Shown here piece after piece: positions 16,816-50,847 of a stretch of 64,000 nt of DNA (the stretch's first letter is position 1; each line of letters starts with the position of its first letter). The stretch comes from Thermovorax subterraneus (lineage in GTDB: Bacteria > Bacillota > Thermosediminibacteria > Thermosediminibacterales > Thermosediminibacteraceae). The notes under the pieces were generated by a model that saw nothing but the letters and a program-made list of their open reading frames with translations, had not been told where the DNA came from and made no database searches. Position numbers and translations under genes: made by a program. The stretch is from assembly GCA_021608145.1 (NCBI GenBank), contig JAKIHM010000008.1:1-64000 (forward strand). The letters run 5' to 3'.

Positions 16816-17008
16816 AGTCAATTTCCCTGCTGTGTGCGTGGACCTGACAGAGGAAAGAGCCAACACTATGACATAGGGAGTCCGGACTCTGGATGTGGAT
16901 TGTATGCCCTCCTTATGAGAGGGAAACATGAATCATCCAGGAGGACACCCACGTGGGAGAGCAGGGTCTCTGTTCCTTGTCAGTACACGGCATGGCGGGG
17001 TTTTTGTT
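16816..17008 (+). ncRNA. ssrS: 6S RNA (RNA polymerase-binding regulatory RNA), probable
   Basis: This is the bulk of the 320-nt gap between aspS and the csoR-like gene. About 190 nt can fold as a long interrupted rod, the 6S shape. Bases 16825-16837 pair with 16983-17000 near the ends; GATTGTATG with CATGAATC and CCCTC (16907-16911) with GAGGG (16919-16923) build the apical arm. The same 5' strand can instead pair with AGCAGGG (16960-16966). The RNA ends in a GC-rich stretch and T run. B. subtilis 6S-1 also lies beside aspS. 6S RNA mimics an open promoter and holds housekeeping RNA polymerase in stationary phase. Identity is by structure and position, not a database match. Confidence 0.75.
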
Positions 17009-49557: not shown

Positions 49558-49587
49558 TTGAAGTTAAGGAATTATTTTTGTTATAAT
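49558..49587 (+). promoter_or_regulatory. Promoter of OLE RNA
   Basis: TTGAAG (49558-49563), 18-bp spacer, exact TATAAT (49582-49587); a start near 49595 is predicted. Confidence 0.75.
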
Positions 49588-49594
49588 ATACTCC

Positions 49595-50236
49595 AGTAGT
49601 ACATTTCGGTAGTTAAGGTGGAACAGGTGGTGCAGTATTCTAGTCGAAATCCTCTTCTCTGAAGACGGGGCTAAAAATCCGTCGAGGGCACATCGATGAA
49701 GTTCCTTGTGCTGGCTTTCGACGCCCAGTCGGGGGTTGGTGCAGGGAGTAAGGGAGTGGGGCAACCTGCAAAGGCATGCAGGCGCGACCCTACTTCCGTG
49801 GAGACCTAAGTGCGTGATGGAAGGCTAAAAGCCTCCTGTTACGGCTTAGGGCGTGAACCTGCATCCGATACAAACCGTGTTGGGTGCAGTGTAGCCTGCC
49901 TTGAGCGGGAAGGGTGGAAAAAGGGAAAACGCATTTAAACTGGCCATTTAAATGCGGCTTAATTACCTTTGAAACCCTTACTGCAAAAGAGGCTAGGAGA
50001 AGGTGGATTTCGGTGAGGAAAACTCCTAGACTGTTCCGAAAGGAAGTGGACTGAGGATTGCAGTGCGGACTAAGTGGCAATCCAGCCCTGCCTTTGGCGA
50101 CAAGGCAGAGAGAGGCGTAAAGGGGAACCGCCTTTTCCGGCGACGGGAGGTGCTTCTCTGGGAAATCCTGCTGGACCTAAGCCGCAAAATTTACTCAGTT
50201 CACTACCTCCTGTTCCACCTCGTTTGAGGTGAATTT
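49595..50236 (+). ncRNA. ole: OLE RNA (ornate, large, extremophilic)
   Basis: A gene-free, GC-richer stretch of about 640 nt. Its ends form a long-range stem: 49616-49627 pairs perfectly with 50209-50220 (12 bp), and TGGTG with CACTACC adds to it. In between are many short helices and G+A-rich joints. OLE RNAs are about 600 nt, belong to anaerobic or extremophilic Firmicutes, lie near isoprenoid genes and are followed by oapA, exactly as here. The RNA forms a membrane ribonucleoprotein with OapA and has been linked to alcohol, Mg2+ and cold stress in Bacillus halodurans. Call rests on size, context and end pairing. Confidence 0.92.
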
Positions 50237-50240
50237 TTTT
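50216..50240 (+). terminator. Terminator-like hairpin at the OLE/oapA junction
   Basis: CACCTC (50216-50221) pairs with GAGGTG (50226-50231) over a GTTT loop, followed by AA and seven T residues. The same GAGGTG is the oapA ribosome-binding site, and the CACCTC arm is part of the OLE closing stem. Confidence 0.65.
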
Positions 50241-50847
50241 GAGTAAAAACAATAACAAAAAAATCACGTGCAAAAAAAACAACGGAGGACCAAAAGCTAG
50301 ATGGATATATAAAGTTGTGGTATTAACTTTTGGGCTTTCCGTTTTTTTTAGCTTTATTTCGGAAACATTGATGGATAAGTTGAACGTAATCTTATCATTT
50401 TTTATTTTGTCCTCCATAGTATTCATAGGGATAATATTTGATATTATAGGAATAGCAGTTACCTCTGCCGACGAGACCCCTTTTCATGCCATGGCAGCTC
50501 ATAAAATTCCTGGGGGGAAAGAGGGGGTACGGCTTATTAGAAATGCCGATATAGTGTCAAATTTCTGCAATGACGTCATTGGCGATATCTCAGGGATAAT
50601 AAGCGGTGCAGCAGGCGCTTCTATAGTAGCGAAAATAATTTATGGTAATAATGACGTGCCGGAAATAATAATTAGCACTTTAATCGCTGGAACGATTTCA
50701 ACAATTACGGTAGGTGGAAAGGCCTTAGGCAAGAGTTTAGCTATAAAAAAATCCAAGGAAATCGTCTATAAGGTCGCGTATATTCTCTATTTTTTAAAAA
50801 AACGTTTCGGAGTTGAATTGTTTCCAAAAAAATCGGGCAAATACTGA
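50239..50847 (+). CDS. oapA: OLE-associated protein A (OapA), membrane protein
   Basis: A 202-residue membrane protein that partners OLE RNA. The N-terminus is strongly basic (KNNNKKITCKKNNGG), followed by four hydrophobic segments (about 28-44, 52-75, 120-140, 144-160). Known OapA proteins bind OLE and hold it at the membrane. TTG 50239 lies inside the T run of the preceding hairpin, 7 nt from the GAGGTG ribosome-binding site, so expression depends on the hairpin state. It lacks any database check; context makes the call strong. Confidence 0.9.
   Translation: MSKNNNKKITCKKNNGGPKARWIYKVVVLTFGLSVFFSFISETLMDKLNVILSFFILSSIVFIGIIFDIIGIAVTSADETPFHAMAAHKIPGGKEGVRLIRNADIVSNFCNDVIGDISGIISGAAGASIVAKIIYGNNDVPEIIISTLIAGTISTITVGGKALGKSLAIKKSKEIVYKVAYILYFLKKRFGVELFPKKSGKY

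Follow-up and report, generated by a model that had tools for sequence, protein, structure and literature searches.

The junction between the OLE RNA gene and oapA in Thermovorax subterraneus contains two RNA pairings that compete for the same nucleotides. One is P1, the stem that closes OLE, and the other is a short hairpin over the Shine-Dalgarno sequence (SD) of oapA. Sequence comparison shows that both pairings can be drawn, that they are mutually exclusive at 5 shared nt, and that two genera have retained them. We tentatively propose, with a confidence somewhat short of even, that P1 gates a lineage-specific attenuator at the OLE-oapA junction. The DNA analyzed is the 64,000-nucleotide (nt) stretch at positions 1 to 64,000 of contig JAKIHM010000008.1, referred to as the window, and the junction was compared with OLE-oapA loci of other genomes.

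The OLE-oapA junction and its two pairings

The window contains a full-length OLE RNA (49611-50225; all OLE-oapA features described here are on the + strand). It matches positions 1-616 of the Rfam model RF01071 with 516.1 bits, compared to a gathering cut-off of 50. Upstream of it, a consensus scan predicted a sigma-A-type promoter (49558-49587; 10 of 12 matches), in which TTGAAG and TATAAT are separated by 18 nt and the -10 hexamer is preceded by TG. Accordingly placed, the OLE transcription start is expected at approximately 49594-49596. A TATAAT-like box was found at the same place in relatives; the consensus scan as a whole yielded no excess over shuffled sequences.

An adjacent oapA gene is frequent, not universal, for OLE RNA. 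In the window, oapA (50239-50847, an ORF of 202 amino acids) adjoins OLE downstream, and its TTG start codon lies 14 nt past the end of the Rfam match. Its product showed a weak CNNM match (E 1.3e-4), which is under the curated cut-off. Among named organisms, Fervidicola ferrireducens is the closest relative, with an OapA protein that is 91% identical. OLE was present at all 80 of the 80 named OapA loci retrieved. The SD of oapA, GAGGUG (50226-50231), is located 7 nt before the start codon, and relatives have a similar SD and spacing ahead of a TTG start. Elsewhere in the window, a 6S RNA was detected (16821-17005; RF00013, 105 bits).

The spans of P1 are given as strict contiguous stems; spans from unrestricted duplex folding were discarded. 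The P1 5' strand (AGGUGGAACAGG-U-GGUG) corresponds to positions 49616-49632 and the 3' strand to positions 50204-50220. In the main helix, AGGUGGAACAGG (49616-49627) pairs with CCUGUUCCACCU (50209-50220) in 12 unbroken Watson-Crick pairs. Inward of this helix, a U-U mismatch (49628/50208) is followed by pairing of GGUG (49629-49632) with UACC (50204-50207). The outer part of the 5' strand, AGGUG, is the same 5-mer as a part of the oapA SD. Across the family, four P1 pairs showed double-sided changes, and 88% of cells were paired. Furthermore, in a comparison of 201 loci, the mean P1 stem was 9.8 bp for own-locus pairs versus 6.8 bp for cross-locus pairs. In this strict-stem comparison, relatives sharing the P1 of locus L001 stood in for L001.

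The outer end of the P1 3' strand is also part of the predicted alternative hairpin (50216-50231), in which CACCUC (50216-50221) and GAGGUG (50226-50231) are connected by the loop GUUU (50222-50225). The overlap consists of the five nucleotides CACCU (50216-50220), which form the outer 5 of the 16 P1 pairs. This agrees with the original prediction that the OLE closing stem shares bases with a hairpin over the oapA SD. The hairpin is followed by AA and by a T7 tract (50234-50240), which overlaps the TTG codon (50239-50241), so that the T run said to hold the oapA start was also found. With a 6-bp stem containing four G-C pairs, AA, and T7, the element has the layout of an intrinsic terminator, which the T7 tract would complete. 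As a terminator, the hairpin is weak (approximately -8 kcal/mol at 37°C in the window and -9.9 kcal/mol in genus g2; see below). A terminator scan flagged it, with 4 such sites detected in 4 kb versus 3.9 in shuffled sequences.

Conservation of the hairpin in related genera

The hairpin at the OLE-oapA junction is not random. In a pattern search, CACCTC-N3-8-GAGGTG occurred a single time in the 2.45-Mb genome. The palindrome with the tail AATTTT was found in 4 of the 22 genomes of the order, once in each and always at the ole-oapA junction, and a fifth junction (L015 in genome G014) harbors a U-G variant of the hairpin. In the window, 57 ORFs are preceded by an SD; of these, oapA alone has a short-loop SD hairpin of 6 bp, and it alone has a T-run of 7. 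A survey of 185 OLE-oapA junctions revealed this type of hairpin in the present clade only. The T-run taken alone was rejected as evidence for a terminator: runs of at least 7 also occur without a hairpin, for example at L023.

For the genome search, genera were designated g1, g2, g3, and g4 and families f1 and f2, with the window belonging to f1 and g1. The hairpin with T7 is kept in five genomes, namely in the window, Fervidicola, G014 (the U-G variant), G016, and the g2 genome. It is thus present in g1 and g2, and it is absent in g3, g4, and family f2. The carriers represent two related genera of Gram-positive and apparently heat-loving bacteria. Between them, the loop varies (GTTT, GCTAT, or GTTC) while the stem and T7 stay. 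At fourfold sites, the window differs from G016 or g2 by 0.58-0.59, which is near saturation, whereas the junction is almost unchanged.

These data bear on the explanation that the hairpin is incidental. In this case, C-rich, anti-SD-like 3' arms of P1 would create an SD hairpin by chance and without a role, and the T-run would be an A/T-rich spacer. The 3' arms would be anti-SD-like because the conserved 5' GUGGUG resembles an SD. Random pairings of junctions and SDs yield 0.93 short-loop SD hairpins on average (approximately 0.9 per swapped set), in line with a chance origin, as are the T-runs of at least 7 without a hairpin, the lack of covariation in the hairpin, and the similar P1-dependent SD accessibility of swapped junctions (both described below). 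However, chance does not easily account for a palindrome with a single copy in the genome that five genomes have retained at this junction, although the loops have changed and synonymous divergence is near saturation. We consider an incidental hairpin rather improbable.

Covariation of CACCTC with GAGGTG had been set beforehand as a test of the original prediction, and it was not found: compensatory changes were seen in 0 of the 6 hairpin pairs, with one change from U-A to U-G, in a comparison of few sequences with constrained arms. The hairpin has little room for variation, because its two arms double as a part of P1 and as the SD, respectively. The P1 5' extension GGTG tracks the hairpin, both being present in g1 and g2 and both missing in g3 and g4. 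Such co-occurrence, which represents a single evolutionary contrast, would follow from a need for both CACC partners. In the phylogenetic tree (g1,(g2,g3)), g2 groups with g3 (support 86/90), implying either that g3 lost the hairpin or that it arose twice.

At loci L005, L007, L008, L010, and L012 of family f2, weak pairing with an A-A mismatch is possible between the inner 3' arm of P1 (UACCACC) and the oapA SD GGAGGUA. It may represent a less stable version of the arrangement in the window.

Folding models and the proposed attenuator

The competition between the two helices was modeled using a short construct, in which the OLE body was replaced by a linker. At 37-70°C, full P1 was more stable than the combination of hairpin and inner P1, with a margin of 2.9-8.3 kcal/mol. 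In modeled nascent chains, positions 50216-50220 are already paired in P1 when the second hairpin arm emerges. When the P1 5' strand was omitted, the hairpin was formed and the SD accessibility was approximately 0-0.05 even at 70°C. When a short 5' strand was supplied, the accessibility was 0.5-0.8. Folding with and without the P1 5' strand covered the loci outside f2. The models thus suggest that P1 prevails as long as its 5' strand is available. The postulated competition of P1 with the hairpin is borne out to this extent: the helices are mutually exclusive in the models, with P1 favored, and both are conserved in the two genera.

The original prediction also held that folded OLE frees the SD. 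This applied to the model with the short 5' strand but not to that with the whole expected leader, for which the SD accessibility in the window was 0.01 at 37°C and approximately 0.4 at 65°C. The low values are explained by the OLE 5' leader CAUUUCGG (49602-49609), which can pair with the SD; its predicted partner when P1 is formed is UUGAGGUG (50224-50231). Pairing between leader and SD is not consistently conserved in relatives. According to the models, folded OLE in the window may mask the SD through its own 5' leader.

The same models are relevant to the explanation that the hairpin acts on translation only, either as an SD-sequestering element or as a thermosensor that opens with rising temperature, P1 and termination being of minor importance. 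The whole SD is inside the hairpin and its modeled accessibility is approximately zero without P1, as a translational element would require. However, the model without P1 has the hairpin still intact at 70°C and thus predicts no melting at relevant temperatures, and the T7 tract is left unexplained. This makes a purely translational role very improbable in our opinion.

For the P1-gated attenuator, we propose the following sequence of events. When RNA polymerase leaves OLE, the P1 3' strand would be out first. With the OLE body and the 5' strand in place, P1 would capture positions 50209-50220 and keep CACCUC from GAGGUG. The polymerase would then pass the T7 tract, and the SD would be at least partly exposed. 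If P1 is blocked, with OLE misfolded, 5'-cleaved, or remodeled by a protein, CACCUC and GAGGUG would fold into the hairpin. The transcript would then end in the T-run or, if completed, would have a buried SD. That termination or a translation block takes place in cells, and that its purpose is an OapA supply matched to intact OLE, is what we infer from this arrangement.

The attenuator is favored by (i) the conservation of the hairpin together with T7, (ii) the co-occurrence with GGTG, (iii) the covariation in P1, (iv) the folding results, and (v) the recurrence of terminators between OLE and oapA in other lineages (see below). Our doubts come from its restriction to two genera, which the tree accounts for only by a loss or by two gains, the 6-bp stem without compensatory change, the short linker construct, and the possible masking of the SD by the leader when P1 is formed. 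They also come from the wider survey, in which P1-SD coupling showed no excess over swapped junctions and the strong terminators of other lineages did without P1.

A broader reading, which we regard as doubtful, is that OLE senses its own folding. Transcription and translation would proceed into oapA only if OLE is complete and its 5' strand intact. The RNA of a membrane ribonucleoprotein would thereby license, in cis, the synthesis of its protein partner, and OapA binding near P2 may provide feedback. In the published OLE model, P1 belongs to domain 2, and the mapped OapA binding sites are palindromes located within or close to P2 and P4a (PMC12265935). Binding of OapA at these sites would allow feedback on P1. 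If the proposal is true, one helix choice would decide both the formation of OLE 3' ends and the matching of OapA output to OLE, making OLE a self-licensing RNA and offering a simple assay for OLE folding.

Junctions of other lineages and known systems

At 155 OLE-oapA junctions, the gain in SD accessibility derived from P1 was compared between native and swapped tails. The mean gain was 0.12 for native and 0.13 for swapped tails, and a gain above 0.4 was observed for 14% of the native versus 12% of the swapped junctions. Since own junctions performed no better than swapped ones, a general P1-SD switch across OLE RNAs was rejected. The suggested coupling of OapA output to intact OLE is therefore upheld only in part: the exclusive pairings, the GGTG extension, and the folding models are in its favor, whereas its lineage-specific occurrence and the lack of general P1-SD coupling at the 155 junctions are not.

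Strong intrinsic terminators, defined by a hairpin of at most -12 kcal/mol ahead of a T-run, were found between OLE and oapA at 26 of 192 junctions versus 1.4 expected from shuffled sequences. They include junctions of Fictibacillus, Rossellomorea, Anaerosalibacter, Maledivibacter, and Caloranaerobacter. This shows that ending OLE before oapA is a recurrent arrangement, a finding relevant to the notion that processing is the main route of OLE release. The strong terminators of other lineages sit downstream of P1 and make no use of its strands. P1 gating was rejected for them, as they are clear of P1; a marginal overlap at L191 is due to over-extension of the hairpin. A terminator common to P1 and the SD is particular to the clade of the window.

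Strong OLE-oapA terminators were seen in many Bacillota (L192, L148, L150, L142, L133, L134, L166, L173, L059, and others), and several carry the repeated stem CTGATAGC...GCTATCAG. A hairpin of the form AGGTTGGAGG...GAGG...CC...CCCCAACCT is present at seven junctions (L030, L034, L042, L066, L078, L084, and L088). Both its sequence and its pairing are conserved. Instead of an ordinary terminator, it may be a binding element. The metagenome-assembled genome RGIG3863 appears to contain two OLE-oapA loci (L165 and L174) on different contigs.

The main rival to the gated attenuator is a constitutive terminator, which would form the 3' end of most OLE transcripts. Minor read-through would set a high OLE:OapA ratio, and the overlap with P1 would be an economy of space. 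The 26 strong terminators, nearly all of them clear of P1, are consistent with this explanation. In addition, the OLE of H. halodurans is very abundant, has its own promoter, and is approximately 630 nt long (PMC9723947); in the window, the distance from the expected OLE start to the T-run is approximately 645 nt. However, folding prefers P1 when OLE is intact, and termination would then be inefficient. Furthermore, a constitutive terminator leaves the co-occurrence of GGTG and the hairpin unexplained. We judge it to be unlikely.

In the open-access literature, a scope outside of which the original OLE papers lie, we found no description of an OLE terminator or of cis control of oapA. Comparison of the proposed attenuator with known systems reveals the following. 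The locus resembles that of the H. halodurans OLE ribonucleoprotein in the RNA class, the promoter-like element, and the position of oapA directly downstream, but the H. halodurans junction (L190) lacks such a hairpin or T-run, and its OLE is presumed to be processed from a longer transcript (PMC9723947). In the Mn2+ riboswitch ykoY, an attenuator, the closing stem and the terminator are mutually exclusive (PMC10898510). As in riboswitch-type attenuators of this kind, the 3' strand of the closing helix is common to a terminator or SD hairpin. Unlike in riboswitches, a 600-nt RNA with its own function is in the position of the aptamer, the stem is short, and switching is predicted, with no ligand known. 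Finally, as in plain terminators after noncoding RNA genes, a stem-loop and a T-run are located immediately past OLE. In contrast to plain terminators, the stem in the window overlaps P1, the SD, and the start region of oapA.
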